Shown here one piece after another: positions 1,226 to 17,490 of a stretch of DNA of 64,000 nt (position 1 is its first letter; every line of letters begins with the position of its first letter). The notes below the pieces were generated by a model that had not been told where the DNA came from, searched no databases, and saw only the letters and a list, made by a program, of their open reading frames with translations. This DNA is from Cellulophaga sp. L1A9 (GTDB lineage Bacteria > Bacteroidota > Bacteroidia > Flavobacteriales > Flavobacteriaceae): assembly GCF_009797025.1 (NCBI RefSeq), contig NZ_CP047027.1, positions 3,162,001 through 3,226,000 of the forward strand, read 5' to 3'. The translations under genes and the position numbers were made by a program.

Positions 1226-1343
1226 CATTAGACTTGAGTGTGAATGGATATTGCCTATACTACAGTTTAGTAGAGTTTAGCTAAGTCATTTAAAAATTGT
1301 TCTGAAGGAATGTTAGCCAGAGAAATTACAAAAGATTTAATGG

Positions 1344-2378
1344 TTAAGAGCTAAGGGTTGTAGATGCTCTTTGTATCAGGTCTGTTTGTAAAATAATCTC
1401 TTTTAGAGCAATGGGTTTATTCTTTTTTTTGCTTTTAATTTCTTTGTATAATTGCTTAAAGGCTGTTTTACCCATTAAAAATCCAGGTTGGTTTATTGTG
1501 GTTAAACTAGGAGATATGACCGAAGACATAAACCAATTGCTAAATCCTACTACAGCTATATCATTAGGGACCTGTATTCCTTTTTCTTGAAACGCTGTTA
1601 AAGCACCAATGGCAACTAGATCTGTGTTTATAAAGATGCCATCAACATTTTTGTGGTCTTCTAATAGTTGTAGCGCATTGGTTTTGCCTTCCTCAAAGCT
1701 CTTATCTCCACATTCACAGATGTAAACTAGAGAAGGATCATAATCCATGTGATTATCTAACAAGGCCTTCTTGTAGCCTAAAAAACGATCGATGGAATTC
1801 TGGGGTAATAAAGCACCTCTAAAATGCGCTATTTTCTTGCAGCCTATATCAATTAGATGTTGCGTAGCTTCATATGCAGCTTTACGATCATCAATAATAA
1901 CTTTAGAACAGCGTACTAATTTTGCAATTTTATCAAACATGACTAGTGGCTTGTCCTGAGCAACAATTTCGTTGAGGTGCATAAAATCTGCCGTACCATT
2001 AGCTAAGGATATAAGAATACCATCTACACGTTGCTGCATTAACAAATTAAGCTGCTTTTTTTCTAATTTATACGATTCATTAGACTGTAAAATAATTACT
2101 AAATATCCCTTCTTTTCTGCCTGCGAAATAATCCCTTTAATGACACTAGAAAAAAAATGATGCACTACCTCGGGTACTATTAAACCAATGGTTTTAGTCT
2201 CCTTATTACGTAAATTAACGGCCAAGCTATTAGGCTTGTAATTTAAAGTTTTAGCGAGTTCATGAACTAATGCTTTTGTTTTTTTGCTAACATCAGGATA
2301 ATCTTTCAGCGCTTTTGAAGCTGTAGATACAGATATGTTTAATTTTTGAGCTATTTCCTTTAATGTTACTGGCTTCAT
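1344..2378 (-). CDS. LacI/GalR-family transcriptional regulator
   Basis: A 344-residue protein with an N-terminal LacI helix-turn-helix (about residues 4-50, TLKEIAQKLNISVSTASKAL), the hinge NSLAVNLRNKETKTIGLIVP, and a periplasmic-binding-protein-like sugar-sensing domain to about residue 335. Length is typical. It is divergent from the kinase and GH13 phosphorylase genes at 2591-5297, so it probably controls them in response to a sugar or sugar phosphate. A palindrome of the expected kind lies in the shared intergenic region (2447-2460). The effector is unknown. Confidence 0.93.
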   Translation of the reverse strand: MKPVTLKEIAQKLNISVSTASKALKDYPDVSKKTKALVHELAKTLNYKPNSLAVNLRNKETKTIGLIVPEVVHHFFSSVIKGIISQAEKKGYLVIILQSNESYKLEKKQLNLLMQQRVDGILISLANGTADFMHLNEIVAQDKPLVMFDKIAKLVRCSKVIIDDRKAAYEATQHLIDIGCKKIAHFRGALLPQNSIDRFLGYKKALLDNHMDYDPSLVYICECGDKSFEEGKTNALQLLEDHKNVDGIFINTDLVAIGALTAFQEKGIQVPNDIAVVGFSNWFMSSVISPSLTTINQPGFLMGKTAFKQLYKEIKSKKKNKPIALKEIILQTDLIQRASTTLSS

Positions 2379-2446
2379 AAGCTAAATGTAGGTTTTGCTT
2401 TTTAAAGTAAGTTAGAAATAAAAATCGAAATCGTTTTAGTTCATTA

Positions 2447-2460
2447 CGAAATCAATTTCG
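2447..2460. promoter_or_regulatory. Candidate LacI-family operator
   Basis: CGAAATCAATTTCG has 6-base arms (CGAAAT and ATTTCG) around two central bases. It lies between the divergent lacI-type gene (start 2378) and the kinase gene (start 2591). A related half, CGAAATCG, sits about 20 bases to the left (2426-2433). Position and symmetry fit a LacI-type operator. Binding is inferred. Confidence 0.45.
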
Positions 2461-2590
2461 GAACCTAAAATGGTATAACAAGTTAATTATCATTTATCTT
2501 GGTAATCAATTCGGAGAAAGTGGCTATATTTTACTATAAGTCAGTGTCTTAAAACTAAACTAAATAACATAGTATTTTAAAACCAAAAAC

Positions 2591-3529
2591 TTGAAAACAA
2601 AACCAAGAACGATAGACATTCTCTGTGTAGGTGAAATTCTTATAGATTTTATAGGCCATCAATCCGGAATGGGTATTGATAATACCAGAGATTACCACAG
2701 ATATTTAGGAGGCTCTCCTACCAATGTAGCGATGAATGCAGCACGATTAGGACTAAACCCCGCGCTTGTGGCTTCCGTTGGAGATGATGGTTTTGGGTCT
2801 TATATTTTTAAACGATTAGATGAGGTGGGGATTTCGACAAAATACATCAGTCAGAAAAAGAACAAACCCACCAGTGTCATCTTTGTTTCGAGAACAGCGG
2901 GTACGCCAGATTTTATTCCGTTTAGACAAGCCGATAAAGAAATCAAAGAAAGCCAATTAAGTAAAGCCTTATTATTAGATAGTAAAATATTTCATACCAC
3001 GTGTTTTGCCCTAAGTAAAAACCCTGCCCAAGCTACGATTCTTAAAAAAGCTCAAGAAGCTTTTGAATTGGGGTGTCAATTGAGTATCGATGTGAATTAC
3101 GCAAGAAAACTTTGGAAGAGTAGGGCAGAAGCACTAAAGGTTATTAAAGCCTATTGCAAATTTAACCCACTTGTTAAAATTAGTGAGGACGATATGCTTC
3201 GCTTGTTTAAGAAAGAAGTACCACATGATGAAATTTTTAATTTCTTTCATTCTGAGGGTGTTGCTACAGTTTGTTTAACCTTAGGAAGTAAAGGCGTTAA
3301 GCTATCAAAACAAGGCTATGGTGTCATCACTTTACCGGCAATTAAGGTAGACAAAATTATGGATGCCACCGGTGCAGGAGATGCTTTTTGGTCAGGATTT
3401 TTATTTGCTTATATCAATGAAAAGCCTATTGAAAAGTGCTTAGAAGTGGCTCTTAAATTGGCGGCATTAAAGCTTCAAAATGTAGGGCGACTTCCTGATA
3501 ATATTAATATTATTTCAGAATTATTATAA
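2591..3529 (+). CDS. PfkB-family carbohydrate kinase, probable fructokinase
   Basis: A 312-residue ribokinase-fold kinase. The opening ILCVGEILIDF, the glycine-rich GGSPTNVAMNAARLG (residues 40-54) and the signature DATGAGDAFWSGF (from residue 258, catalytic Asp264) are all present. The start is TTG at 2591: the first internal ATG (Met27) would remove the first strand of the fold, and no ATG lies upstream in frame close by. It precedes the GH13_18 phosphorylase by 46 bases. If that enzyme splits sucrose into glucose 1-phosphate and fructose, this kinase would make fructose 6-phosphate. Sugar specificity is inferred from context. Confidence 0.88.
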   Translation: MKTKPRTIDILCVGEILIDFIGHQSGMGIDNTRDYHRYLGGSPTNVAMNAARLGLNPALVASVGDDGFGSYIFKRLDEVGISTKYISQKKNKPTSVIFVSRTAGTPDFIPFRQADKEIKESQLSKALLLDSKIFHTTCFALSKNPAQATILKKAQEAFELGCQLSIDVNYARKLWKSRAEALKVIKAYCKFNPLVKISEDDMLRLFKKEVPHDEIFNFFHSEGVATVCLTLGSKGVKLSKQGYGVITLPAIKVDKIMDATGAGDAFWSGFLFAYINEKPIEKCLEVALKLAALKLQNVGRLPDNINIISELL

Positions 3530-3575
3530 TCAGCCCATTAAATAAAAATGCAACTAGTTATCATAAAACCCAGAT

Positions 3576-5297
3576 ATGACAGATATTAGAAATGGTGTAA
3601 TGTTAAATGCTTACCCAGATAGCATCGGAAACAAACTAAGCGATACCGTTAAAGTGTTGCAAATGCCAGAATTTAAAGATGTTTTTTCGTTATTCTATGT
3701 GTTGCCAACGTTTTTTAATAGTGATTTAGATCGCGGTTTTTCTATTATAGATTATAACTTTAATGAAGCATTAGTTACCAAAGAAGACCTTAAAGCTTTA
3801 GACGCATTGCGCATTATGCTCAAGTTTGATATTGTTTTGAATCACCTATCCGTGGCTTCCCCTCAATTTAAAGATATGTTGCAGCACGGTAAGGCATCAA
3901 AATACAAGGACTTTTTTATTGATTGGAATCAGTTTTGGGAGGGCAATGGTGAGCTAGCCGAAAATGGAGTGATTATACCTGATCCTAGACATTTGAATAA
4001 GTTATTCATGCGTAAATCTGGACTTCCTATTCTCAAAGTTATTTTCCCAGACGGAACAGAAAAACCCTATTGGAATACCTTTTATCAAGAAATTAAGTAT
4101 CAGCCAATAGCAATAGGTGATTTATCTAATTTAAATGTATCAGAGAAAGTAGCAGTAGCTATTTGTGAAACTATCAATGCAGCGATAGCGACCCAACAAG
4201 ATTTTAAAATTCTTGACTTAGGTACAGCAGAAATATATAAAGACCAGATCCTAGCAATTATAGAAAAGAAGCGCTCGTATTTAGGGCAGATGGATGTAAA
4301 TGCAAAGTCGCCTTTAGTATGGGAGTTTTATAAAGAAACCTTGCAGAAAGTACGAAGCTATGGGTGTAAAGTACTTCGGCTAGATGCTTTTGCATATTTG
4401 CATAAAGAAGTAGGGCAAACTAATTTTTTTAATATTCCAGGAACTTGGGATTATTTAGAGCGCATTAATAAAATTGCACAAGAAAATGAGTTACAACTTT
4501 TACCAGAAATCCATGCGGAATACGGATTACATCTTCATGATGAGGTAGCAGCTAAAGGATACGTTATTTATGATTTTTTCTTGCCAGGCTTAACAATTCA
4601 TGCGTTAGAAAAAGGTACGAATACGGCTATTCTAAAATGGGCGAATGAGATAGTTGCTAAAAATTATACTACCGTAAACATGTTAGGATGCCATGATGGT
4701 ATTCCTGTGCTAGACCTTAAAGGAAAAGAAGTACAGGGTGTTTATCAAGAAGGCCTATTATTAGATAAAGAAATAGAAGAGATTATGGACACCATTATTG
4801 CGCGCGGTGGCAGAGTTAAAAACCTTTATGATCCATCAGGGAAGAAAATTTCTTACTACCAAGTCAATGCTACTTTTTACAGTGCATTAGGAGAAAGTGA
4901 TCAGAAATTAGTATTGGCAAGGGCCATTCAACTATTTATGCCAGGGACTCCTCAGATTTGGTATTTAGATTTATTTGCTGGTAAAAATAATTATGAAGCT
5001 GCTGATCATGGCGGCAGTGGAGGTCATAAAGAAATAAATAGAACGACCTTATCTCTTGAAGCTATTCATAAAGGTTTAGAAAAACCAGTAGTACTAAAAC
5101 AATTGAAGTTGTTGCGTTTGAGAAATACAAATGTTGCTTTTACGGGAAAAATGGCGATTGCAGAAACTGCGGAGCAAGAGTTAGATATTTCATGGGTTAA
5201 AGGTCTTGATAGCGTGCAACTAAAAGCTAATCTTTCTACGTATAAATTTGAAATAATTATAACCAGTAAGGATGAAATAGAAGTGCTTCATTTTTAG
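3576..5297 (+). CDS. GH13 subfamily 18 phosphorylase, sucrose-phosphorylase-like
   Basis: A 573-residue glycoside hydrolase family 13 protein. GCKVLRLDAFAYLHKEVG carries the nucleophile Asp270, LLPEIHAEYG the acid/base Glu311, and NMLGCHDGIPVLDL the His373-Asp374 pair, all in the style of subfamily 18. That subfamily converts an alpha-glucoside plus phosphate to glucose 1-phosphate and the aglycone; members act on sucrose, sucrose 6'-phosphate, glucosylglycerol or glucosylglycerate. There is no signal peptide, so it is cytoplasmic. It is longer than the usual roughly 480-500 residues because about 60 extra residues (around 174-238) precede the nucleophile strand. The adjacent fructokinase-like gene favours sucrose or a sucrose-like substrate; glucosylglycerol remains possible. 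Confidence 0.85.
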   Translation: MTDIRNGVMLNAYPDSIGNKLSDTVKVLQMPEFKDVFSLFYVLPTFFNSDLDRGFSIIDYNFNEALVTKEDLKALDALRIMLKFDIVLNHLSVASPQFKDMLQHGKASKYKDFFIDWNQFWEGNGELAENGVIIPDPRHLNKLFMRKSGLPILKVIFPDGTEKPYWNTFYQEIKYQPIAIGDLSNLNVSEKVAVAICETINAAIATQQDFKILDLGTAEIYKDQILAIIEKKRSYLGQMDVNAKSPLVWEFYKETLQKVRSYGCKVLRLDAFAYLHKEVGQTNFFNIPGTWDYLERINKIAQENELQLLPEIHAEYGLHLHDEVAAKGYVIYDFFLPGLTIHALEKGTNTAILKWANEIVAKNYTTVNMLGCHDGIPVLDLKGKEVQGVYQEGLLLDKEIEEIMDTIIARGGRVKNLYDPSGKKISYYQVNATFYSALGESDQKLVLARAIQLFMPGTPQIWYLDLFAGKNNYEAADHGGSGGHKEINRTTLSLEAIHKGLEKPVVLKQLKLLRLRNTNVAFTGKMAIAETAEQELDISWVKGLDSVQLKANLSTYKFEIIITSKDEIEVLHF

Positions 5298-5536: not shown

Positions 5537-6454
5537 ATGAAGAAGAACTCACTACTTGTAGTTTTAATAGTACTCATCAGTACTTCACTTTTTGCGCAAG
5601 ATGAACTGCCTATTCGTATTCCAGATACAGAAATTAAAAGTCTTCCTAGTGTCTTCAATAAATCATTACAAACTAACCTTGAAAAAGAATTAAAATTGAA
5701 TCCGCAGTGGAGGAAATTAATCGCAGAAAAGAAAATGGCTGTTGGTGTCGTAGATTTAAGCAATCCAGGGAATACAAGATTCGCAAGAATCAACGGAAAT
5801 CATATGATGTATGCTGCTAGTTTGCCTAAAATTGCCATTCTTTTAGCGGCTATGGATGCTATTGAAAAAGGCCAGTTAAAAGAAACTAAGGAAGTTAAGG
5901 CAGATATGCGTTTAATGATTAGTAAATCTAACAACCAAGCCTCTACTAGAATGATAGATCGTGTGGGGTATAAGAAAATTGAAGATGTCATGACAGATCC
6001 TAAATATGCGTTTTATGATGAGCATAAAGGAGGAGGTCTTTGGGTAGGAAAACGCTACGGTGGTGGTGGTGATACGAATAGAGAGCCCCTAAAAAACTTA
6101 AGTCATGCAGCTACGGTTACGCAAGTTTGTAGGTATTATTATTTACTAGCTAATGGGAAATTAGTGAACGAAAATCGTTCTAAGCAAATGTTGGCCATTA
6201 TGGAAAATCCAGACTTGCATCACAAATTTGTAAATACCCTAGATCAAATTGCTCCTGATGCTCGTTTGTTCAGAAAATCTGGTTCTTGGCGTACTTTTCA
6301 TTCAGATTCTATATTGGTTTGGGGAGATGATCCTGACCGCCGTTATATCTTAGTAGCATTAATAGATGATGCTAATGGAGAACAGATTATTAGAGATTTA
6401 GTGAAACCAGTAGAAAAAGTTTTAAAAAAGAGAATATCTTTGGCTAGTAACTAG
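5537..6454 (+). CDS. Exported class A beta-lactamase-like serine hydrolase
   Basis: A 305-residue protein with a signal peptide ending SLFAQ (residues 1-21). It has the three hallmarks of penicillin-interacting serine enzymes: S95-L-P-K98 as SxxK, S131-N-N133 as SxN, and K247-S-G249 as the KTG-box equivalent. It should act in the periplasm on peptidoglycan peptides or a related amide or ester. A true beta-lactamase would normally have an ExxLN motif and KTG, which are not clear here, so resistance is not implied. It is followed after 18 bases by the nucleotide-transporter-like gene in the same orientation, suggesting co-transcription. Confidence 0.82.
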   Translation: MKKNSLLVVLIVLISTSLFAQDELPIRIPDTEIKSLPSVFNKSLQTNLEKELKLNPQWRKLIAEKKMAVGVVDLSNPGNTRFARINGNHMMYAASLPKIAILLAAMDAIEKGQLKETKEVKADMRLMISKSNNQASTRMIDRVGYKKIEDVMTDPKYAFYDEHKGGGLWVGKRYGGGGDTNREPLKNLSHAATVTQVCRYYYLLANGKLVNENRSKQMLAIMENPDLHHKFVNTLDQIAPDARLFRKSGSWRTFHSDSILVWGDDPDRRYILVALIDDANGEQIIRDLVKPVEKVLKKRISLASN

Positions 6455-6472: not shown

Positions 6473-9286
6473 ATGCTCCTAAACTTAATTAAGAAAACAT
6501 TTGATATAAGAGAAGGAGAGTTTAAAATTTCTTTCTATATGTTGGCGTATATATTTTTGGTAATAGCTTCTTTGCTAATTATCAAGCCAACAGTAAATGC
6601 TTTATTTTTATCGGAATTAGGCGTAGAAAATCTTCCTTTAGCATTTCTTTTAGTTGCCGCAACTGCCATTGTAAGTTCCTATGGGTATTCTAGAGCCTTA
6701 GCGCGCTTTTCACTTAAAAAAATAATTAGATTTACTTTATCAGTTTCTATAATCCTTAGTATTGTTCTTGCATTACTGCTGAGGTTTCATTATTTAAATA
6801 AATGGGCACTCTACTTTTTTTATGTGTGGGTAGCCATTCATGCCGTTCTCTCAGCATCACAGTTTTGGGTCATGGCAAATTTGGTATATAATGCCAGAGA
6901 AGCCAAGCGTTTGTTTGGGTTTATTGGTTCTGGAGCTATTCTAGGCGGAATTTTAGGAGGGTACTTAACGTCTTTATTAGCGCCTCTTATTGGTAATGAA
7001 AATGTGATATTCATTGCCGCTTTATTTTTAGGAATTTGTATCGCCTTGCTAAATAAAATATGGAAAGCCAGAATTATTAAACTAAATACATTTAAGCAGA
7101 AGAAGCGCACTGGAGTAAGGGAAGTAAAACCAATTACATTAATTAAAAATTCTAAGCACTTAACCTATCTAGCCGGTATTGTGGGGATTAGTGTTATTGT
7201 TGCTAAACTGGTAGACTATTTGTACAGTGATTTTGCTTCTGCACGTATTCCAGACCCAGATGAGCTGACTTCTTTCTTTGCTTTTTGGTTTTCCACTTTC
7301 AATTTATTGTCATTATTAATTCAATTATTTTTTACTCAACGAGTCGTAGGTATTTGGGGTGTTGGTTTTTCTTTGATGTTGTTGCCTTTAGGAATATTCA
7401 TGGGAGCAGCATTATTTTTTGTTGTTCCAGAATTGTCGGTAATCATTTTTATTAAAGCTGTAGATGGTACATTAAAACAATCTATTCATAAGAGTGCTAC
7501 GGAACTGTTATCCTTACCATTGCCCTTTGATCTTAAAAACAAAACAAAGTCTTTTATTGATGTTGTTGTAGATAGTGTAGCTACCGGTATTGCAGGTTTT
7601 ATTTTAATTTTCGCCATCAAGGGACTCGATTTACCCATATATTATATTACGTCAATAATTATACTTCTTGTAGGGATTTGGATGTTTTTTATTTATAAAG
7701 TTAGAAAAGAATACTTTCAAACGTTTAGAGAAAACCTTGCCGAGTTAGCCAATATTAAAATAAAAGATACTTCCGTTGTAAAGAATGTTTCTGTAGTAGA
7801 AGGTATGAAGACGGTATTTAAATCAGGATCAGAATCTCAGATCTTATTTATGTTACAAAAACTTCAGGAAATCAATGACAAGCGATTTATAAAAGAAGTT
7901 GAGCTATTAGTAGACCATCCTTCTCTTAAAGTAAAAACAGCAGCAATCCAAAGCCTTTATTTTTTGAATAGTAATAGTATGATTTCTCAAATACCTGAGT
8001 TACTCAAAAGTGAGGATGAGGATTTAGTAGAAGCTACATTGGCATACTTGTTATTGCACGCTCAGAAAAATGAAACTATTGTGTTTGATGCTTATTTGGA
8101 TGATAAAAATTCATTAATAGCAACTACAGCATTGCTGTGTTTGGCACGTGAGTCTAGAGATAATTACTCTTTACGTTCTACTTATAAGCTTACGGAGCGC
8201 ATAGCAAGAGAGATTGCAGCGGTTAAAGAAAATGAAGCAGCTATAGACCGATTGCAGATTCTATTGAAAACAATAGGGGCTGCTAATATTGCAGGCTTTC
8301 ATGACATCCTAAAAGAATACCTATTGCACTCTTCGGAAGCGGTACAGAAAACGGCCATTTATGCCGCAGGACAAACTTTAAGTCCGGAGTTTATTCCTTT
8401 ACTTGTTGGTTTTTTGCCCAATAAAAACTTAAGGAATACAACAGTGTTAGCGCTTCAAAACTACGGCCAGCAAATACAGCCTACTTTGTTAGACATGGTC
8501 AAGGCGCATACGGTTTCTATTGAAATAGCTCGGTTTATTCCACTAGTATTTAAAGCGTTTCATTCTCAAGATTCAGTCCGCAATCTTTTCCATTTATTAG
8601 AAGATAAAGATCTGGCGGTACGGCTATCGGCAATTAGAGCTTTAAGTGATTTAAAGACCGATTTTCCGAACCTTCATTTTAATAATGCTAAAATTGTTTC
8701 TAGTATTTATGAGGAATGTAAATTGTATCATAATACCTTATCTGCTATGCATACGCAGATTATTGTTTCTTATCGAAATAGGAAAAAAACAAAAGAAATA
8801 GTTTCTGAATCAGAGCGAGATGCCCGTGCAAGTTTATTGGAATTATTAGAGCGTAGACTAGATGCAGGTTTAGAGCGTATTTTTAAATTATTAGGTTTAA
8901 AATATAAGCAGAATGATATTACCATTGCCTATGCTGGTTTGGTGAGTGAAAAACAGGAGGCAAGAACCAATGCTATAGAATTTTTAGATAATTTACTTTC
9001 AGGAGAATTAAAACGAAAATTACTTCCTATTATAGAGAGTAGTGCTATAGATGTAACTTCTGAAGAAGTAATACATCAATTTAAGCAAAAAATATTAACA
9101 GAATTAGAATGCTTTCAATTGCTATTAGAAGCTAATGATCAGAAACTAAAACTTGCTGTTTTCTTTTTGATTGGAAAACAACAAAATAAAAAATATATTC
9201 CCTTGCTCGAAAAGTATTTGGAAGATGAGAATTTCAAAATCAAATCTTTTGCAAAAGAAGCTCTAGAAGAGTTATATAAAATATAG
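6473..9286 (+). CDS. ATP/ADP-translocase-like membrane transporter fused to HEAT repeats
   Basis: A 937-residue protein. Residues 1 to about 425 form a 12-helix carrier related to the Npt/Tlc nucleotide transporters: KPTVNALFLSELGVENLP near the first helices and AREAKRLFGFIGSGAILGG before helix 5 are characteristic. Residues from about 440 to the end are soluble helical HEAT-like repeats (for example DHPSLKVKTAAIQSLYFL and EDKDLAVRLSAIRALSDL). Rickettsial and chlamydial relatives exchange ATP for ADP, but free-living bacterial homologues with HEAT tails have unknown substrates. The start 18 bases after the serine hydrolase stop implies an operon. Function in nucleotide transport is only suggested by homology. 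Confidence 0.85.
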   Translation: MLLNLIKKTFDIREGEFKISFYMLAYIFLVIASLLIIKPTVNALFLSELGVENLPLAFLLVAATAIVSSYGYSRALARFSLKKIIRFTLSVSIILSIVLALLLRFHYLNKWALYFFYVWVAIHAVLSASQFWVMANLVYNAREAKRLFGFIGSGAILGGILGGYLTSLLAPLIGNENVIFIAALFLGICIALLNKIWKARIIKLNTFKQKKRTGVREVKPITLIKNSKHLTYLAGIVGISVIVAKLVDYLYSDFASARIPDPDELTSFFAFWFSTFNLLSLLIQLFFTQRVVGIWGVGFSLMLLPLGIFMGAALFFVVPELSVIIFIKAVDGTLKQSIHKSATELLSLPLPFDLKNKTKSFIDVVVDSVATGIAGFILIFAIKGLDLPIYYITSIIILLVGIWMFFIYKVRKEYFQTFRENLAELANIKIKDTSVVKNVSVVEGMKTVFKSGSESQILFMLQKLQEINDKRFIKEVELLVDHPSLKVKTAAIQSLYFLNSNSMISQIPELLKSEDEDLVEATLAYLLLHAQKNETIVFDAYLDDKNSLIATTALLCLARESRDNYSLRSTYKLTERIAREIAAVKENEAAIDRLQILLKTIGAANIAGFHDILKEYLLHSSEAVQKTAIYAAGQTLSPEFIPLLVGFLPNKNLRNTTVLALQNYGQQIQPTLLDMVKAHTVSIEIARFIPLVFKAFHSQDSVRNLFHLLEDKDLAVRLSAIRALSDLKTDFPNLHFNNAKIVSSIYEECKLYHNTLSAMHTQIIVSYRNRKKTKEIVSESERDARASLLELLERRLDAGLERIFKLLGLKYKQNDITIAYAGLVSEKQEARTNAIEFLDNLLSGELKRKLLPIIESSAIDVTSEEVIHQFKQKILTELECFQLLLEANDQKLKLAVFFLIGKQQNKKYIPLLEKYLEDENFKIKSFAKEALEELYKI

Positions 9287-9323
9287 GTATAGCTGTCTTT
9301 CTAATTTTAAAGAAAGCTATACC
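9286..9323. terminator. Stem between convergent genes, possible terminator
   Basis: GGTATAGCT (9286-9294) pairs with AGCTATACC (9315-9323) and CTTTCT with AGAAAG inside it, giving a long hairpin exactly between the converging HEAT-transporter and SDR genes. There is no long T-tract, so termination efficiency is uncertain. Confidence 0.45.
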
Positions 9324-9332
9324 CAAGCCTTG

Positions 9333-10064
9333 TTATATTAAAGCTCCATTAGCTCCTATTACCTGACCAGAAATCCATTTAGAATCATCGCTAGATAAAA
9401 ACAATACTACCTTAGCAATATCTAATGGTTTTGCTAATCTATTAAAGGCATTCATGCCTCTAAGTTTTGTGAGTGTTTCTTCAGATTTTCCATTTAAAAA
9501 CATATCTGTTTCTGTGGCTCCTGGAGCAATTGCATTTACAGATATTCCTCTTCCTATTTCTTTAGAAAATACGCGTGTCATTTGTTCTACCGCAGCTTTT
9601 GTAGCAGAATAAAGAGAATAGGTAGGGAGCATCAATTTTGCAGTACTTGATGAAAAATTGATGATTATACCATTATCGGCTAATTTAAAATTGGCTTCTT
9701 GCATCGTATTAAATACTCCTTTAACGTTGACATTAAAAAGGGTCGTAAAATCCTCTTCACTACTATCTTTCAATAATTTAGAAACCATAGTTCCTGCATT
9801 ATTTACGAGCACATCAATTTTACCATAAGCTTCAAGAGTAGCATCAAATAAGACTGTTACTTCCTTTTTTTTACTCACATCAGCTTTAAATGAAAATGCA
9901 GTTCCGCCGTTGTCAATTATTTGTGTAACGGTTTCTTCCGCCTCCTTTTCACTGTTTGAATGATTTATGACAACTTTTGCTCCATTTTTAGCCAATAATA
10001 GAGCTGTTTCTTTCCCAATCCCTTTAGAGGATCCGGTTACGATAATTACTTTGTTATGTATCAT
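9333..10064 (-). CDS. Short-chain dehydrogenase/reductase (SDR)
   Basis: A classical 243-residue SDR: cofactor motif TGSSKGIG (residues 10-17), NNAG (88-91), a catalytic Ser in INFSSS, and Y152-SAT-K156 as YxxxK. His-Ser-Asn after the second strand suggests NADP(H) preference, which is only a tendency. The PGATETDMF segment is typical of glucose/3-oxoacyl-reductase-like members. It overlaps the DoxX-like gene by 11 bases and is the last gene of the TetR-flanked operon. The substrate is unknown; a role in detoxifying a carbonyl compound is plausible. Confidence 0.93.
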   Translation of the reverse strand: MIHNKVIIVTGSSKGIGKETALLLAKNGAKVVINHSNSEKEAEETVTQIIDNGGTAFSFKADVSKKKEVTVLFDATLEAYGKIDVLVNNAGTMVSKLLKDSSEEDFTTLFNVNVKGVFNTMQEANFKLADNGIIINFSSSTAKLMLPTYSLYSATKAAVEQMTRVFSKEIGRGISVNAIAPGATETDMFLNGKSEETLTKLRGMNAFNRLAKPLDIAKVVLFLSSDDSKWISGQVIGANGALI

Positions 10065-10449
10065 GTTCTGTTGTTATAGAATTTTTATTTAATTTATAAA
10101 TAGCGCCAATAGCTAAGAATATTGCTATTGCTACAAGGATAAGTTTAGGTTCGGGCCTAGCGAGTAGTTCTAATAAAATAGCGGTTAGCATCGTAACCAA
10201 TAAAAAAGCAAAAGCAATTTTCTCGATCTTTTGTTTTTCATAGACAAATGCGAATATTAAAAGACCTGCTAAAGCTAATTCCGAAATTCCCGTGAATATT
10301 CTAAAAAAAGTTGCAGGTATACCTAACGCAATTTCAAACTGCTTAAAGCCTTCTATGCTTCGAGGCATTCCTGTTAATTTAGGAATCGCAAAAAATGACA
10401 TGATTATGACGGTGATAGCATTTAAAATATTTTCCTTAATGACGTTCAT
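10054..10449 (-). CDS. DoxX-like small integral membrane protein
   Basis: A 131-residue protein with four hydrophobic segments and the pattern IPKLTGMPRSIEGF near residues 23-36, as in DoxX-like/DUF4345-type membrane proteins. It sits 7 bases after the haloacid dehalogenase gene and overlaps the SDR by 11 bases, so the three are surely translated from one message. DoxX-like proteins often accompany redox or detoxification enzymes, but the biochemical role is not established. Confidence 0.8.
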   Translation of the reverse strand: MNVIKENILNAITVIIMSFFAIPKLTGMPRSIEGFKQFEIALGIPATFFRIFTGISELALAGLLIFAFVYEKQKIEKIAFAFLLVTMLTAILLELLARPEPKLILVAIAIFLAIGAIYKLNKNSITTEHDT

Positions 10450-10456
10450 ACTGCGC

Positions 10457-11269
10457 TTATTTTAAGGCAATCAATTTGTCGGAGATCAATTTTAAATTGG
10501 CTTCATTTAATTCAGGACTAGGTGCTAGGGGATACAATTGTGCGCCAGGTCTGCTGATAAAAGCGGCTCTCCAATTTGCCCAGAGTGCACCTGCAATATC
10601 CCAGCCATGGGCAGCGACTAATAAACATTCTTGTGGTTTTACACCCATTTTTCGGGCAGCCCAATCATAGGCATCTGTATGTGGTTTAAATTTTCCAATA
10701 TCCTCTACACTCAAGCGCTCCTCAAATAAATCTATCAATCCAGAATTTTCAAACTGTGTTTTTACACCTATGTTTGATGAATTGGTGAAAGAGACTAATG
10801 TATAGCCTGCCTTTTTTAAATTTTCTAAAGAAGATCTTACTTCTGGGTGCGCAGGTAACGAGCGTAATGGTTTTAGAATGGCTTCTGTGGCTTTGTCTTT
10901 AGAGATTGTAATTCCGTTGTTTGAGGCTACCATTTGTAGCGCAGCAACGCCTACGATTCCAAAATCGTGATACTGCCTTGCTACCGTGTCTACTAATGAA
11001 TATTGTAGCATGGTGGTAAACCATAAGGATAATAAGTCACTTCTTTTTCCTAAAGCATTCCCTACGCTTTCTCTCATTGCGTTTAGGTCTAATAAGGTTT
11101 CATTTACATCAAAGAAAATTACTTTAGGACGGTCTGTCAAAAGGGTAGGTTCTATGTTTTTTTTGGTATCATTCGCAGAAAAACCTAAGTGTGGGGCAGC
11201 AATACCCGCTAAACCTAATAAGGCAGATTTTTTTACGAAATTTCTTCTTTGTTCGTTTTGTTGACTCAT
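10457..11269 (-). CDS. Tat-exported haloacid dehalogenase type II
   Basis: A 270-residue protein beginning with a twin-arginine signal (R8-R9-N-F-V-K-K, then a hydrophobic stretch to about residue 31). The HAD nucleophile motif is FFDVNETLLDL (Asp54); further motifs are SFTNSSN and the Lys in EDIGKFKPHTDAYDWAARKMG. This matches L-2-haloacid dehalogenase (type II) enzymes, which release halide from 2-haloalkanoates. A Tat signal places it in the periplasm, unusual for this family and useful against an incoming halogenated acid. It is the first gene of an operon with DoxX-like and SDR genes, and a palindrome lies 17 bases upstream. Confidence 0.88.
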   Translation of the reverse strand: MSQQNEQRRNFVKKSALLGLAGIAAPHLGFSANDTKKNIEPTLLTDRPKVIFFDVNETLLDLNAMRESVGNALGKRSDLLSLWFTTMLQYSLVDTVARQYHDFGIVGVAALQMVASNNGITISKDKATEAILKPLRSLPAHPEVRSSLENLKKAGYTLVSFTNSSNIGVKTQFENSGLIDLFEERLSVEDIGKFKPHTDAYDWAARKMGVKPQECLLVAAHGWDIAGALWANWRAAFISRPGAQLYPLAPSPELNEANLKLISDKLIALK

Positions 11270-11286
11270 AATAATGGATGTTTTTT

Positions 11287-11310
11287 AAAACATACTAAGT
11301 AGTATGTTTT
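11287..11310. promoter_or_regulatory. Candidate TetR operator upstream of the dehalogenase operon
   Basis: AAAACATACT and AGTATGTTTT form perfect 10-base arms around AAGT. The central 14 bases (11292-11305, ATACTAAGTAGTAT) recur with one mismatch upstream of the tetR gene at 11944-11957. Both copies end close to 18 bases from the following start codon, as expected for operators over the two promoters. Confidence 0.75.
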
Positions 11311-11323
11311 TATGTAAAAAAAA

Positions 11324-11926
11324 TTAAACTTCTAATTTTTGCAGGTAGAAAGAAAGCCCAGAGATGTATGCTTCTAAAATTGCATCGTCTTGGTATAATT
11401 TTCGTATGCCTCGAATGCCTTCAAAAGCACTTATTAAATAAATAGCAACCGCTTTACTTTCTATATTTTGTTGGATACTCTTTTCTAATTTACCTCTATC
11501 AATTAAGAAAATTAGCGCTGCTTGCCATTCTTCTATAATTTTTTTTAATGCGATTTGATATGCAATTTCTTCATCTCCAATCTCATTAATTAAATTATTC
11601 ATGGGGCAACCATGTTTCTTTTCATGGATAGAAAATGATTTTAGACGATCAATAAAAGTGGCTTTTAAAATGTCTAAAGCATTACCAGGTTGATATAAAG
11701 GGGCAACCATACCGTCATAAACACGCTCTTTTACCTTTGTGGTAATTACAGCGAGACCTAATTCTTTTTTGTTTTTATAATGGTGGTAGAAGGCACCCTT
11801 TGTAAGCTTGGTAGCGAGCATAACTTTATCTACACTGGTACTTTTAAAACCGTTGGAATAAAATAGTCTAAATGATTCCTCTAGGATTAATTGTTTAGTG
11901 AATTCCGATTTCTGCTTTTGCTCCAT
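11324..11926 (-). CDS. TetR/AcrR-family transcriptional repressor
   Basis: A 200-residue protein with an N-terminal TetR helix-turn-helix (about residues 9-55: ILEESFRLFYSNGFKSTSVDKV, then TKGAFYHHYKNKKEL) and a helical ligand-binding half. The region CPMNNLINEIGDEE resembles the NemR/YcdC-like group, where a cysteine senses electrophiles; the Cys is seen here, its function is inferred. The gene lies directly upstream of the dehalogenase-DoxX-SDR operon with a 54-base gap. Matching palindromes precede both units, so it probably represses itself and the operon. Confidence 0.92.
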   Translation of the reverse strand: MEQKQKSEFTKQLILEESFRLFYSNGFKSTSVDKVMLATKLTKGAFYHHYKNKKELGLAVITTKVKERVYDGMVAPLYQPGNALDILKATFIDRLKSFSIHEKKHGCPMNNLINEIGDEEIAYQIALKKIIEEWQAALIFLIDRGKLEKSIQQNIESKAVAIYLISAFEGIRGIRKLYQDDAILEAYISGLSFYLQKLEV

Positions 11927-11943
11927 GTCGTAAAAGTAATAAA

Positions 11944-11957
11944 ATACTAGGTAGTAT
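11944..11957. promoter_or_regulatory. Candidate TetR operator upstream of the repressor gene
   Basis: ATACTAGGTAGTAT, with ATACT/AGTAT arms around AGGT, is followed by GTTTT exactly as in the copy at 11287-11310. It starts 17 bases before the tetR start codon, which fits autoregulation. Confidence 0.72.
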
Positions 11958-12038
11958 GTTTTTAAATTTACTTAATTAACATTGAATTATGACGTTATTT
12001 GTCCATACTTATTAAAACAGCTTTGAAGAATTTAACTA

Positions 12039-13298
12039 TTATTGTTTAATGACTTTGTCTATTGCGGAGGCTAAATACATATGATCCGAAGCCGAATTTT
12101 TACGCAATACATTGGTCATTAAAACAACCATGTACGTACAATTATCTGGGTGTTCAACGATGATAACAGAGTTCATGAAATTTGAAACATTCCCCATATA
12201 TTTTCCACAAACTTGACCATTAGAACGGTCGCATTTGTACAAGCTTCCAGATTTAAAATATACGGCAGCATCCTTCAATGCAGGAGATTGTGCATATCTA
12301 ATTCTACGATCTGTCATGTACATAAGGCGCTTCATTTCTAAGCTACTATTTTCATCCACAACTTTCCCTTGTTCTAGTTGTATTAAAAATTTCATCAATC
12401 CAATAGGAGTTCCTGTACTGCCTCCTTTATCCCCCACGTAGGTATTAGCGCCGCCTGTAAAAAAGCTCCCTAAACGCCATTCTTCATGAGTGATGCCTAA
12501 ATCACGAAGGGGTAAATTTACCACATCATTAGCTAAATCTGTTAGTTCTTTTTTAGGTGTTGTTTTAAAATAGGTTAAAGCCTTTTCTTCTGTCAATTCG
12601 GGATACTCTTTTCCAAAAGCAGCCATCAATAAAGCTTCTCGCCACACAATACTTGCTGCGCCATTATTACTTACAGACAACATATGGTCTGTCCATTCAT
12701 ACAACGAAAAAACATCACTAGCGACGACTTGGCGCTTTACTAAGGTTTTCTTTTCTACATTGTAGATGGGAATAGTGTGCTCATCGGTTAGGCCCCAAAC
12801 ACCGGCCTTAACGGTTTTATTTTTTAATAAACTTGTTCTACTTTCCCATGAATCTGGGTATATCTTAGCCAATTGCGTAAACAAGGCATTTAATACCGCC
12901 AGTTTACCTACACTACCTGGTTGATACCCGGCAGTTTCATTTCTTTTAGCATACCGAATGCTATCTAAATCTGAAATATCTAGAACAGTAAGCGAGTAGC
13001 TTTTATCTAAACCTCTGAATAAACCACTAATTTCCTTCTGGAAATCTTCGTCGACTTGTAAAAAACTCCCTACACTATCAGAAGCTTTTGAGATTAAATT
13101 CAATTTAATGTCACTCCATGATTTTTTAGCCCCTTCAGGTAGAGGTGTGGTTTCTTTCAATTCGCCACTGTTGATTAATTCTAATCGAAGCAATCGTCTA
13201 ATTCCTGTTTGCTCATACCCGTCTATAGGATAAAACAATAGGGTAGTAAATGCAAAACAAGAACTAATTAATATTCCGAGGATAAGTAGTTTTTTCAT
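12039..13298 (-). CDS. Exported SxxK serine hydrolase (beta-lactamase/PBP-like)
   Basis: A 419-residue protein with an N-terminal signal or anchor segment (residues 2-22). It carries S129-V-G-K132 (SxxK), S210-N-N212 (SxN) and K348-S-G350 (KTG-box equivalent), so the full catalytic set of penicillin-recognising enzymes is there. Compared with small class A beta-lactamases it has an N-terminal extension of about 80 residues and a long insertion between SxN and KSG. A Cys pair near the C-terminus (YKCDRSNGQVCGKY) could form a disulfide. It begins 2 bases after the stop of the exported dikinase-like gene, so the two are likely co-translated. Substrate unknown. Confidence 0.8.
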   Translation of the reverse strand: MKKLLILGILISSCFAFTTLLFYPIDGYEQTGIRRLLRLELINSGELKETTPLPEGAKKSWSDIKLNLISKASDSVGSFLQVDEDFQKEISGLFRGLDKSYSLTVLDISDLDSIRYAKRNETAGYQPGSVGKLAVLNALFTQLAKIYPDSWESRTSLLKNKTVKAGVWGLTDEHTIPIYNVEKKTLVKRQVVASDVFSLYEWTDHMLSVSNNGAASIVWREALLMAAFGKEYPELTEEKALTYFKTTPKKELTDLANDVVNLPLRDLGITHEEWRLGSFFTGGANTYVGDKGGSTGTPIGLMKFLIQLEQGKVVDENSSLEMKRLMYMTDRRIRYAQSPALKDAAVYFKSGSLYKCDRSNGQVCGKYMGNVSNFMNSVIIVEHPDNCTYMVVLMTNVLRKNSASDHMYLASAIDKVIKQ

Positions 13299-13300
13299 GG

Positions 13301-16204
13301 TTATAGTTTTATTGATAGGGGTATTTCTTTGTTTGTATTTATTTTTGGGGTGATGGATTCTAAATAGGCAGAACTCAATGCTTTTTTGTTTTCTACAAAA
13401 GGTCTAATTTGAAACAACCATAATTTATTGTCTTTAAAGCCTAATTCTACATCATACGCACCTTTGTAATCTGTGTTTGTTTCTGTAGGCATTCTTTTTC
13501 GAATCGTTTCAGCAAGGAGGCGTATCTCTTCTATATTCTGTTCATTTAAAACCGACTTTTCAAAAGTTGCTAATTTTTTACCAGTACCACCCGTAACAGG
13601 TAAGGTATTATGGTACGGTTCCCGTGCAGGCGCTAATAAGTCATAGCCCCCAGAGTTCTTAATTTCATAAGTTTCTGCAGATTGACCGTCAACAGCACCA
13701 CCAGCACCACGACTAAAGGCTATGGTTAAATCTTTTTCATTTCCAGAATTTAATCCTTTGGTAATTAAAACACCAGAATAATCTACATCTACACTAGGGA
13801 TAACCAAAATAGATGGGAAAACATTTTCTGGGTTTAATAAATATTTCTGTCTCCATTTGAAGCTACGTTCTGTGTAAGGCGAAGCCCATACATCTTTAAT
13901 ACCTGCAATAATTTTTTCTTTAGCTACCGCATTAAAAATGGTTAAATTAAGTCCGGCTCCCGTAAAATCCTTTAAATCTTCCATGTTGGTGTCACTGCGC
14001 AAGAATACCGGAACAGCTCCTAAATTTTCACCAAAAACTGTTGAGAATTCTTTTTCTAAGGAAGAGGTAAAGCTATCTTTTAGCGGCATTATTTTTATAG
14101 CCGTTCTTAAAGTTTCTAATTGCAGGAGTTGATAGTTTTCTACTTCTTTTTCAGGAACATTAGTTTCTCGCATTTTATCTGCTTCCGCAAACATATTGTT
14201 AAGGAACTTCCAGTACGTAACCGTTTGTCCTGGCATAGGCTGATCCATGTGATCTCTAAAAATCCCAAAAGGAATCACTAATCCCTCTACAACATTGTCA
14301 GGGAACATCTTTTTTAACTGTCCTAAATTGGCCGCTTTTGGTCCACAGAGCTTTCCTGAATCTTCCGCATCAACACTACGCATATTTAGAATTGCAGTTT
14401 CGTCTAAACGAATATTAGCCACAGGCACAGCAATTTTTTCTTCCTTCCGTTCTTTTTTAGTAAACAAGGCTAATTCATCTGCAGCCATGTCTTTCTCTAA
14501 TTTTAGAATAACATTTCCCTTATTAGAGACCGCATAAAATACTTTTTGACCATTATAAGCCAGTAAATCTTTTAAATTTTCATCGGATAATGCGGTATTT
14601 GGGATGCCTAGGTTACGGGCTAATAATTGAACATGAGAAACCATGTTACCTTCTGCAACAGTTCCTATTCCTGCAACAGGTTTTAAGTCTGCTGGAGGGC
14701 GTTGAAAAATATAAATCTTATCAGAGGCTACTTCTATCTCATCAGGAGAACCATCAACCACGACCAATTCTCCATAGGCATAGCCGGGGTTTAATCCTCT
14801 AAACGTGCTTTGGTTTTGTACGTCTAATACCTTGTTACTCAAAGAAGATTCTTTTGCAATAAAATCGCCTAAATCACCTACAGCTTTACCTAAATATAAG
14901 GCTATAGATCCTCTGATTTTGTCATCTATAAAACCATAAGCTTTAGGCTCAAAACCTGTGTACTCATTAACAATGTCTTGATACGTAGCTTTTACCATAG
15001 CTGCGCTCCATTCCACCTCTCTGCGGGCATTTTCTAAAACAGCTGTAAGCTCGCCTAAGGTCATTTTTGGAGCTTGATATTTGCTTAACGACCCCATCAA
15101 CTGTTCCCATTCCCATGTTTCAGCATAGCCAGCGCCTGCAGTTGCCATTCCTAAATAGCAGATTTTTTCTAATAGAACATTTACTGATTCCGGTTCCCAT
15201 TTGGGAGCATTTTTAAATAGGATATCTTCAACTTTTAAAGAGATATCAAGCAATTGTAATTTAATCTCAGGATTTGTTTCTTCTAAGATAGCAACTCTCA
15301 ATTCCAAAAGTAAATCAGAAGAATTAATGATAATACTCTTTGGAGTATCCGTTGCGGAAGTAATCGCATACGCATCAATTTTCTTTCCTATGGCTGTTTT
15401 TTTTACAAGAGGAGCATTTGCTAAAAATGTAGAAGCATCTATAGGTTTATAAAAGGTTTGCATGGTAGTTATCAAAGCATCAATTTGTTTGCTAAGGCTT
15501 GTAGTTAGTTTTGCAGTATGTTTCTGTTTAAAATCTTTTACTTTTTGAATGTCTACAAATTCTGGTTGACTATGGATTTTCACCCTAAGATCCATAAAAG
15601 GTTCATAGGCATCAGAAATTACTTTAGACTGGCTGCGCATTAATTGTGAGGTGTTATCATCACCCTCATGCGGAATATCTTTTAAAGATTGTCGGATTAA
15701 GAAATAATTTTGAGCCACACGCTCTTTATCGGCTAATAGCCATTTATAAAATTCAATACCCCAAGCTTGCTCATCTTCAGATTGAATGGAACCTCTGTAA
15801 AATTGCCCTTTTTGTAAAATCCATCCGTCATCAATAGTTCTTAAATACTTATCTAATTGATATTGTTTTAAACGGGAGTGATTGCGCTCTAAATCCCAAA
15901 ATTCTTTTACATCTGTATATGCTAAAATCTGTCCTAAATAAATATGATTGCTCTCTCCTAAAGCAACTACAGCATCTTTATAACGCGCATGTTGGACCCC
16001 TGGTCCAACATTCTCAGGACACGGATCTTTTGGTTGGCGAATACTGCCGTCAGTACAAAACCAACGAATATCTTTATAAGGTCCTCTTATATCGTTTTTA
16101 TAGGTATTTATTTGTTCTGTAATCTTTTCATTGCTAAGCTTTTGAGAAAATAAGGTGGCGGCGAATAAAAACAGAATAAAAGTAGAAATTGATTTGGTTT
16201 TCAT
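13301..16204 (-). CDS. Exported dikinase-like protein: phosphohistidine domain then PPDK-type ATP-grasp domain
   Basis: A 967-residue protein with a signal peptide ending TLFSQ (1-21). Residues 22 to about 465 are not recognised. Around 470-560 is a swivelling phosphohistidine domain (GNMVSHVQLLARNLGIP, His524). Residues about 612-936 are a PEP synthase/PPDK-type ATP-grasp domain, with LRSDTNMEDL (Arg736, Glu742, Asp743), DYSGVLITKG, SRGAGGAV, the metal ligand Glu920 and QIRP (932-935). The C-terminal PEP/pyruvate barrel of PEP synthase is absent and the domain order is reversed relative to it. That order is the one known for alpha-glucan water dikinases. Export of an ATP-using enzyme is odd. 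Upstream, divergently, lies the FGE gene; 2 bases downstream starts the serine hydrolase. Confidence 0.82.
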   Translation of the reverse strand: MKTKSISTFILFLFAATLFSQKLSNEKITEQINTYKNDIRGPYKDIRWFCTDGSIRQPKDPCPENVGPGVQHARYKDAVVALGESNHIYLGQILAYTDVKEFWDLERNHSRLKQYQLDKYLRTIDDGWILQKGQFYRGSIQSEDEQAWGIEFYKWLLADKERVAQNYFLIRQSLKDIPHEGDDNTSQLMRSQSKVISDAYEPFMDLRVKIHSQPEFVDIQKVKDFKQKHTAKLTTSLSKQIDALITTMQTFYKPIDASTFLANAPLVKKTAIGKKIDAYAITSATDTPKSIIINSSDLLLELRVAILEETNPEIKLQLLDISLKVEDILFKNAPKWEPESVNVLLEKICYLGMATAGAGYAETWEWEQLMGSLSKYQAPKMTLGELTAVLENARREVEWSAAMVKATYQDIVNEYTGFEPKAYGFIDDKIRGSIALYLGKAVGDLGDFIAKESSLSNKVLDVQNQSTFRGLNPGYAYGELVVVDGSPDEIEVASDKIYIFQRPPADLKPVAGIGTVAEGNMVSHVQLLARNLGIPNTALSDENLKDLLAYNGQKVFYAVSNKGNVILKLEKDMAADELALFTKKERKEEKIAVPVANIRLDETAILNMRSVDAEDSGKLCGPKAANLGQLKKMFPDNVVEGLVIPFGIFRDHMDQPMPGQTVTYWKFLNNMFAEADKMRETNVPEKEVENYQLLQLETLRTAIKIMPLKDSFTSSLEKEFSTVFGENLGAVPVFLRSDTNMEDLKDFTGAGLNLTIFNAVAKEKIIAGIKDVWASPYTERSFKWRQKYLLNPENVFPSILVIPSVDVDYSGVLITKGLNSGNEKDLTIAFSRGAGGAVDGQSAETYEIKNSGGYDLLAPAREPYHNTLPVTGGTGKKLATFEKSVLNEQNIEEIRLLAETIRKRMPTETNTDYKGAYDVELGFKDNKLWLFQIRPFVENKKALSSAYLESITPKINTNKEIPLSIKL

Positions 16205-16326
16205 GGGTTGATCAAATTTAAATCAAAGTAAAAGTATACTATTTGTACTTTCATTAGTTTAATAATTTACTGATTTTTTATGGATTAATTTAAAGTTAAA
16301 TGTTTTATTCGATTAGACTAGAATTG

Positions 16327-16334
16327 TATTTTTG
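16327..16334 (+). promoter_or_regulatory. Candidate -7 element for the FGE gene
   Basis: TATTTTTG matches the Bacteroidota -7 consensus TAnnTTTG and lies 25 bases before the ATG at 16360. No convincing TTG -33 element at the right spacing was seen, so support is partial. Confidence 0.4.
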
Positions 16335-16359
16335 ACACTTAACCGATAAACCCTTTCCA

Positions 16360-17490
16360 ATGAAGTTCTTGTTACCATTACTTTTTGCGCTACTCTTAGT
16401 GAATACCCAATGTAAAGAACAAAAGAAAGAAGAACTAGTTAAAGAAGAAGATAAGGCTGCGGTTGAAATTTCAAAAAAAGAAGCTTTAAAGGAAATTTTA
16501 GTTGCACAACCTACAGATATAGTTGCACCTGAAGGTATGGTTTGGATTCCTGGAGGAACCTTTAATCAAGGAGCAGTGCCTCAAGATAAAATGGCAATGG
16601 ATCATGAAAAACCAATGCATGAAGTACAGGTAGATGGTTTCTTTATGGATATTACGGAAGTTACCAATGCCCAATTTGCAAAATTTGTAAACGAAACTGG
16701 ATATGTTACTGTTGCAGAACGAGAAATTGATTGGGAAGAAATGAAAGCACAACTGCCAGAAGGTACTCCAAAGCCACATGATTCTATTTTACAACCGGGA
16801 GCATTAATATTCAAGAAAACAAAAAACTCAGTTCCTAATTTATATGATTTTTCTCAATGGTGGGAATGGAAAATTGGAGCAGACTGGAAACATCCAAACG
16901 GACCAAAAAGTACGATACAAGGTAAAGACAAAGAACCTGTGGTTCAAATTTCTTATGAAGATGCTATGGCCTATTGTACTTGGGCAGGAAGAAGGTTGCC
17001 AACAGAAGCAGAATGGGAGCATGCTTCGCGTGGTCACCAAAAGCAAACCATATATTTCTGGGGTGATGATATTAGTAAGTTAGCGTCAATGGCAAACACT
17101 TGGGAAGGCGAGTTTCCTGTAACTAATTCAAAATTAGATGGCTTTGAACGTAGAGCAGCGGTAATGTCTTATCCTGCAAATGATTTTGGTTTGTATGATA
17201 TGGCGGGTAACGTGTGGGAGTGGACTTCAGATTGGTACAGCGCTAATTATTTTAAAGAAGTAGCCAATAATGTTGCATTGGCAAGAAATCCTCAGGGGCC
17301 ATCAAAAACATATAATCCTAACAACCCGTACGCTATAGAAAAAGTAATTAAAGGAGGTTCTTTTTTATGCAGTGCCTCATATTGTGCTAGTTATAGAATC
17401 TCTTCACGAATGGGATCAAGCCCAGATTCTGGAGCAGAACACGTAGGTTTTAGAACGGTGGCTACTCCAGATATGCTCGTTAAGAATTAA
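16360..17490 (+). CDS. Exported formylglycine-generating enzyme (sulfatase maturase, FGE family)
   Basis: A 376-residue protein with a probable lipoprotein signal (Cys18 after a hydrophobic stretch, followed by KEQKKEE). From residue 58 it is an FGE-sulfatase domain: GMVWIPGGTF, DITEVTNAQFAKF, GRRLPTEAEWEHASRG, GNVWEWTSDWY, and KGGSFLCSASYCASYR. The two cysteines Cys337 and Cys342, spaced C-x4-C, are the copper-binding active-site pair of genuine aerobic FGE, absent from most other members of the superfamily. The enzyme oxidises the sulfatase Cys to formylglycine with O2. An envelope location would let it act on exported sulfatases such as the one at 2-1225. It stands alone, divergent from the dikinase-like gene. 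The lipobox is not canonical. Confidence 0.88.
   Translation: MKFLLPLLFALLLVNTQCKEQKKEELVKEEDKAAVEISKKEALKEILVAQPTDIVAPEGMVWIPGGTFNQGAVPQDKMAMDHEKPMHEVQVDGFFMDITEVTNAQFAKFVNETGYVTVAEREIDWEEMKAQLPEGTPKPHDSILQPGALIFKKTKNSVPNLYDFSQWWEWKIGADWKHPNGPKSTIQGKDKEPVVQISYEDAMAYCTWAGRRLPTEAEWEHASRGHQKQTIYFWGDDISKLASMANTWEGEFPVTNSKLDGFERRAAVMSYPANDFGLYDMAGNVWEWTSDWYSANYFKEVANNVALARNPQGPSKTYNPNNPYAIEKVIKGGSFLCSASYCASYRISSRMGSSPDSGAEHVGFRTVATPDMLVKN

Follow-up and report, generated by a model that had tools for sequence, protein, structure and literature searches.

The stretch of the Cellulophaga sp. L1A9 genome analysed here (64,000 nucleotides, contig NZ_CP047027.1, positions 3,162,001 to 3,226,000; hereafter the window) encodes a dikinase-like protein with a signal peptide, c0, which together with the products of three genes close to it, a relative of the ATP/ADP transporters (c2) and two serine enzymes (c1 and c3), points to an undescribed cell-envelope pathway. 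Our preferred reading, to which we assign a probability of roughly 0.6, is that c0 would be the ATP-consuming member of a cell-envelope pathway made up of four co-inherited proteins, transferring a phosphoryl group by way of a histidine relay outside the cytoplasm. ATP-dependent enzymes are normally cytoplasmic, the periplasm being regarded as devoid of usable ATP; against that norm, the signal-bearing c0 keeps every ATP-site residue that we checked and is inherited with an ATP/ADP-carrier relative and two predicted acyl-enzymes. The four genes put the question within experimental reach in culturable marine bacteria. A literature search, whose scope left out most subscription journals and preprints, showed among the papers listed no account of the four-gene module or of an exported dikinase.

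An apparently exported enzyme with an intact ATP site

The plus strand of positions 13301..16204 is interrupted by many stops, and the open frame of 967 codons lies on the minus strand only. The encoded protein of 967 aa starts with a signal peptide (residues 1-20, 16145..16204, with cleavage before Gln21 predicted by eye), which is followed by a mostly helical N-terminal region (residues 22-465, 14810..16141), a phosphohistidine or swivel domain (approximately residues 466-590, 14435..14809, with the His524 codon at 14633-14635) and a PPDK-type ATP-grasp domain (approximately residues 603-950, 13355..14398), all on the minus strand. The original prediction, made from the letters of the DNA, had described this same succession, and the residues that it names were found at the positions it gives. 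The Pfam model PPDK_N (PF01326) matches residues 619-944 with 76.6 bits against a curated cut-off of 27, and a weak PEP-utilizers match at residues 510-535 puts the phosphohistidine ahead of the ATP-grasp domain; the remaining Pfam signal is one sub-threshold match at residues 1-34. Among 40 members of the c0 family searched at E up to 10, PF01326 matches all 40 (best E 2.1e-33) and PEP-utilizers 38 (best E 1.1e-4). The N-terminal region stays unrecognised, as first described: it belongs to no Pfam family by profile search, and Pfam and PDB sequence searches gave no match for it. The fold lists for the whole c0 model likewise held no usable N-terminal match; since they were filled by the C-terminal domain, the missing match does not argue that the fold is new.

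Full-length relatives of c0 are present in 39/199 genomes of Flavobacteriaceae (the family set) and in 11/296 genomes of Bacteroidota (the phylum set), and a genome collection holds further full-length ones at 21 loci. The best-named of the listed matches is a Cellulophaga baltica protein with 97% identity, and the source names of remoter homologues include Salinibacter, Calditrichae, KSB1, Poribacteria and Gemmatimonadota. When one protein from each of 32 loci is aligned, 172 positions are invariant, and in a further alignment of 80 homologues, our choice from the 240 listed and from the loci, H524, K623, R736, E742, T755, E844, D918, E920, Q932 and R934 are identical in 80/80, among them the arginine 736 and the glutamates 742 and 920 that had initially been singled out as intact. 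In the numbering of PMC4844700, R736 and T755 align to Arg117 and Thr136, and K623 and H524 are equated with Lys22 and His825, respectively, by motif only; the phosphate-holding Lys, Arg and Thr and the catalytic His of the PPDK/PEPS ATP-grasp superfamily are all kept throughout the 80. On the strength of these residues and profile matches, c0 is a member of that superfamily, whose ATP-grasp/phosphohistidine pair, as described in PMC4844700, passes the beta phosphate of ATP to the histidine and from there to an acceptor.

A hydrophobic segment, read as a signal peptide, stands ahead of the conserved region in 78/80 of the chosen homologues, the other two of which look truncated; no start codon further downstream showed conservation, and the signal recurs in those homologues that were inspected. 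Moreover, C50 and C62 are both kept in 78/80 and both replaced in 2/80, never one alone, and this joint retention or loss is the pattern expected of a disulphide outside the cytoplasm. The c0 family appears, by these features, to be exported, and with its ATP site and catalytic histidine kept the dikinase is apparently intact.

Four genes inherited together

Among the phylum genomes, c0, c1 and c3 share a single set of 11 and are found in 0/285 others, and c2 occurs in 32/296, including all 11 with c0; a close c2 (32-47% identity, besides the window's own) was found in 9/296, all inside the 11. Among the family genomes, c0 and c1 are present in an identical set of 39, c3 in those 39 and in G435, and c2 in the same 39/199 with 39-62% identity besides the window's own, three further genomes having a c2 match of 21-25% identity over approximately 420 residues.

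In the 39 family genomes, c0 and c1 are adjacent without exception (39/39), c2 and c3 are adjacent in 37, and c1 and c2 converge within 2.5 kb in 33. The gap between the latter two is longer in 2/39, namely the window (2.8 kb) and G368 (7.0 kb); the c0-c1 and c2-c3 pairs fall on separate contigs in G433 and, near contig ends, in G409 and G479; and in G401 c2 lies 2.0 Mb away. That G178, G401 and G432 retain the module genes despite their chromosomal separation argues for function rather than hitch-hiking.

The partner proteins

The c2 gene (6473..9286, plus strand, 937 aa), located about 4 kb downstream of c0, encodes a putative inner-membrane transporter in which a membrane domain of the NTT (ATP/ADP-carrier) family precedes HEAT repeats, the latter presumably cytoplasmic. 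In alignments of 16, later 15, c2 proteins drawn from the window and the loci, PF03219 matches 12/16 members at E up to 0.01, and the 15-member profile finds plant NTT1 (9j3j, E 7.2e-15) and an ADP,ATP carrier (9j3n, E 3.4e-11); judged by these matches, the c2 membrane domain is homologous to the NTT / TLC ATP/ADP transporters. Its layout, NTT membrane domain and then HEAT repeats, is that of the NTT-HEAT fusion transporters of a 2017 paper (PMC5381601), which in its consulted sections calls the fusions monophyletic, describes the named cases as uncharacterised and does not mention a link to an exported dikinase; the module may give a role to these proteins. A second group of NTT-HEAT length, approximately 28-30% identical to c2, occurs in G081, G151, G195, G199, G250 and G286, and 5/6 of these genomes are without the dikinase.

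Of the two serine-enzyme genes, c1 (12039..13298, minus strand, 419 aa) begins 2 bp past the end of c0 and c3 (5537..6454, plus strand, 305 aa) sits 18 bp upstream of c2. Both are predicted to be exported and carry the features of the class A beta-lactamase/PBP-A family (PF13354; SxxK, SxN and K[ST]G), present as S129xxK, S210xN and K349SG in c1 (invariant in 30/30) and as S95LPK, S131xN and K247SG in c3 (invariant in 14/14); 21 c1 and 14 c3 proteins from the window and the loci were aligned. Both are expected, from these motifs, to act through acyl-enzymes. Against NCBIfam at E up to 1, c1 gave no match, the curated class A models included, and the lactamase matches of c3 did not exceed 17 bits, where the cut-offs lie at 200 or higher (14.9 bits on bla_class_A, cut-off 200). 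In the VIA-align comparison the penicillin-binding protein PBP-A ties with the lactamases as a relative of c1; the identity of c1 to PBP-A is 13-14%, c1 is longer by about 150 aa and is further set apart from PBP-A by a YPIDGY-like motif conserved in its N-terminal part and by an invariant cysteine pair near the KSG. In a metagenome-assembled genome of Lutibacter (L013:13127-14902) c3 stands in tandem copies, the second cut by the end of the locus.

The proposed pathway and its weak points

Beyond the cytoplasmic membrane, c0 would bind ATP through its C-terminal ATP-grasp domain, His524 would be phosphorylated with release of AMP and phosphate, and the phosphohistidine domain would then swivel and hand the phosphoryl group to an acceptor, whose natural place would be the helical N-terminal domain of c0. 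The acyl-enzymes c1 and c3 would work on the same family of acceptors, before or after phosphorylation, and the acceptor would most plausibly be peptidoglycan-like or another envelope molecule bearing amide or ester bonds, inasmuch as a shared acceptor of this kind, e.g. peptidoglycan, would link c0 to c1 and c3. The least certain step concerns c2, which, on account of its carrier family and its co-inheritance, we tentatively suggest to supply ATP or to remove the spent nucleotide, the odds being somewhat against this assignment. The original prediction had noted that an enzyme outside the cytoplasm has no obvious source of ATP: a candidate, with reservations, is now at hand in the co-inherited NTT-HEAT protein, which that prediction had not connected with the puzzle. 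Bolder still, and in our estimation rather doubtful, is an ATP economy outside the cytoplasm of some free-living Bacteroidota, and perhaps of other phyla, whereby c2 would swap ATP for spent adenylate and the dikinase would phosphorylate an envelope polymer or peptide remodelled by the two PBP-A-like enzymes; if true, it would provide a function for NTT-HEAT carriers and amount to a novel kind of energetics in the bacterial envelope.

Several observations weigh against the pathway as drawn, and most of them bear on c2. The charged residues E245, E385 and K527 are reported to be important for exchange by AtNTT1 (PMC3306366, PMC10654386), K527E abolishing ATP binding and K527R leaving very weak binding and some import (PMC3306366). 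In the 15 c2 homologues the AtNTT1 set of K155, E245, E385 and K527 is not reproduced: E245 is replaced by Ala or Ser and K527 by Thr or Gly, E385 is the sole position retained, as Asp, and K155 lies beyond the reliable alignment, the comparison being one with AtNTT1. Nor is PF03219 listed as a match of the c2 encoded in the window. Furthermore, G183 and G199 carry c0, c1 and c3 together without a close c2, their NTT matches being of 24% and 29% identity and located elsewhere, and G195, which belongs to the genus of G199 and lacks c0, has the same kind of NTT match as G199. Finally, the co-occurrence counts take no account of shared ancestry, and the distance correlations among c0-c3, 0.85-0.97, come without a housekeeping control. 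The patchy occurrence of c0 within genera (1/5 in g77 and 1/2 in g97, among the genomes listed in the c2 search) helps the case for co-inheritance against shared ancestry without amounting to a formal test. Taken together, the changes at E245 and K527 and the two genomes without a close c2 suggest that c2 may carry another anion, or that ATP supply may be solved differently in the G183 and G199 lineages.

The alternative that survives best, which we nevertheless hold to be unlikely, keeps the pathway and takes ATP away from c2, which would instead import a phosphorylated product or export the acceptor, the nucleotide coming from leakage, vesicles or environmental ATP. The loss of two charged residues important for ATP/ADP exchange and the module without close c2 in G183 and G199 speak for it, as does the different set of invariant charged residues that c2 has of its own in the 15 homologues (e.g. 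K38, R142, R146, D248, K335 and E344); against it, the profile match to 9j3j and the PF03219 matches still place c2 in the ATP/ADP-carrier family, and a close c2 accompanies the dikinase in all 39 family genomes that bear it.

Relation to known dikinases

The remaining alternatives concern c0 itself. An exported detoxification island, in which a rifamycin-phosphotransferase-like enzyme and two beta-lactamases would inactivate antibiotics outside the cytoplasm, is improbable. The catalytic histidine of rifampin phosphotransferase (RPH) is in its C-terminal region (PMC4844700), the order in RPH-Lm being ATP-grasp, rifampin-binding domain and C-terminal His; c0 has the opposite order, with its histidine before the ATP-grasp domain, scores 48.7 bits on the RPH equivalog against a cut-off of 999, has no recognised rifampin-binding domain and, unlike RPH-Lm, comes with a signal peptide and a gene-module setting. 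The poor lactamase scores of c3, the want of any NCBIfam match for c1 at E up to 1 and its tie between PBP-A and the lactamases are also at odds with detoxification, and strict co-inheritance with a transporter would be unlike a resistance gene. There is likewise only a slim chance that the ATP-grasp/histidine pair of c0 serves binding, sensing or the reverse reaction, i.e. ATP formation from AMP and a phosphorylated envelope compound, as the predicted extracytoplasmic location and the lack of a known acceptor might suggest: the identity of His524 and of the ATP-phosphate and acidic residues in 80/80 would be needless in a pure sensor, an argument that leaves the reverse reaction unaffected. 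That c0 is an ordinary cytoplasmic phosphoenolpyruvate (PEP) synthase, misnamed or annotated from the wrong start codon, as the source name phosphoenolpyruvate synthase of several listed homologues might imply, is scarcely credible in view of the signal peptide in 78/80, an equivalog score of 74.4 bits against a cut-off of 598, a domain order opposite to that of PEP synthase and pyruvate phosphate dikinase (ATP-grasp first, PEP barrel last), the absence of a barrel among the matches listed, as anticipated in the original prediction, and the presence in the genome of a single further PPDK_N protein, whose open frame of 822 aa outscores c0 with 406 bits and which is presumably the ordinary cytoplasmic enzyme. 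Some database entries named phosphoenolpyruvate synthase are probably something else.

Plant glucan water dikinases (GWD/PWD) have an N-terminal region, a phosphohistidine domain and a C-terminal ATP-grasp domain, and c0 has the same order. The SHVxxxARN-like histidine motif and the EDL...AGL motif of GWD look similar to those of c0, which is a lead rather than a test. The likeness to these enzymes first proposed for c0 holds for domain order and does not extend to a specific tie: the Pfam model of the GWD phosphohistidine domain (GWD1_pHisD, PF22973) matched 8/40 c0 members at E up to 10, with a non-significant best E of 0.11, as against the 38/40 of PEP-utilizers, and at E 0.001 it had no match in the whole genome or in 14 control genomes. 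Among the Pfam families of the 40 members, of which 25 out of 28 were listed, there was no starch-binding (CBM45-type) domain. According to a February 2026 review (PMC12892837), GWD structures were still to be determined, so that the fold searches had none to match. True GWD membership, with domain order the sole match, is not supported; GWD/PWD, moreover, enter plant plastids, whereas c0 appears to be exported from bacteria. A role of c0 in anti-phage defence was also considered and set aside, a PADLOC search of c0 alone at E up to 0.1 giving no match.

Surroundings of the module

In 9280-16400 we found 10 sigma-70-type promoters and 4 terminators against shuffle means of 26.0 and 4.7; since shuffled sequence yields more of both than the real one, these predictions were not used. 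Between c1 and c2 the window holds four genes on the minus strand (9333-11926), named by eye as SDR, DoxX-like, HAD-like (with a twin-arginine-looking start) and TetR-like; the same insert is present in L021 and not in C. tyrosinoxydans L003. Divergent from c0 lies a gene for an FGE-sulfatase-domain protein with a signal-like start (16360-17490, plus strand; PF03781, 267 bits), which scores 138.5 bits on the GldK model against a cut-off of 350 and whose cluster recurs in 5/32 neighbourhoods. Positions 71-5297 hold in a row, by eye, a sulfatase piece, a LacI-type regulator, a sugar kinase and a GH13-like gene, possibly a sugar-use locus next to the module. In L043, alone among the loci checked, debranching-enzyme and GH63-like genes stand beside the module; being confined to that locus, they were not used as evidence. 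A TerC-family membrane protein of one and the same cluster adjoins the module at L004:10167-11117, L016:10167-11108 and L039:5697-6659, with a Pfam check in L004 and L039.
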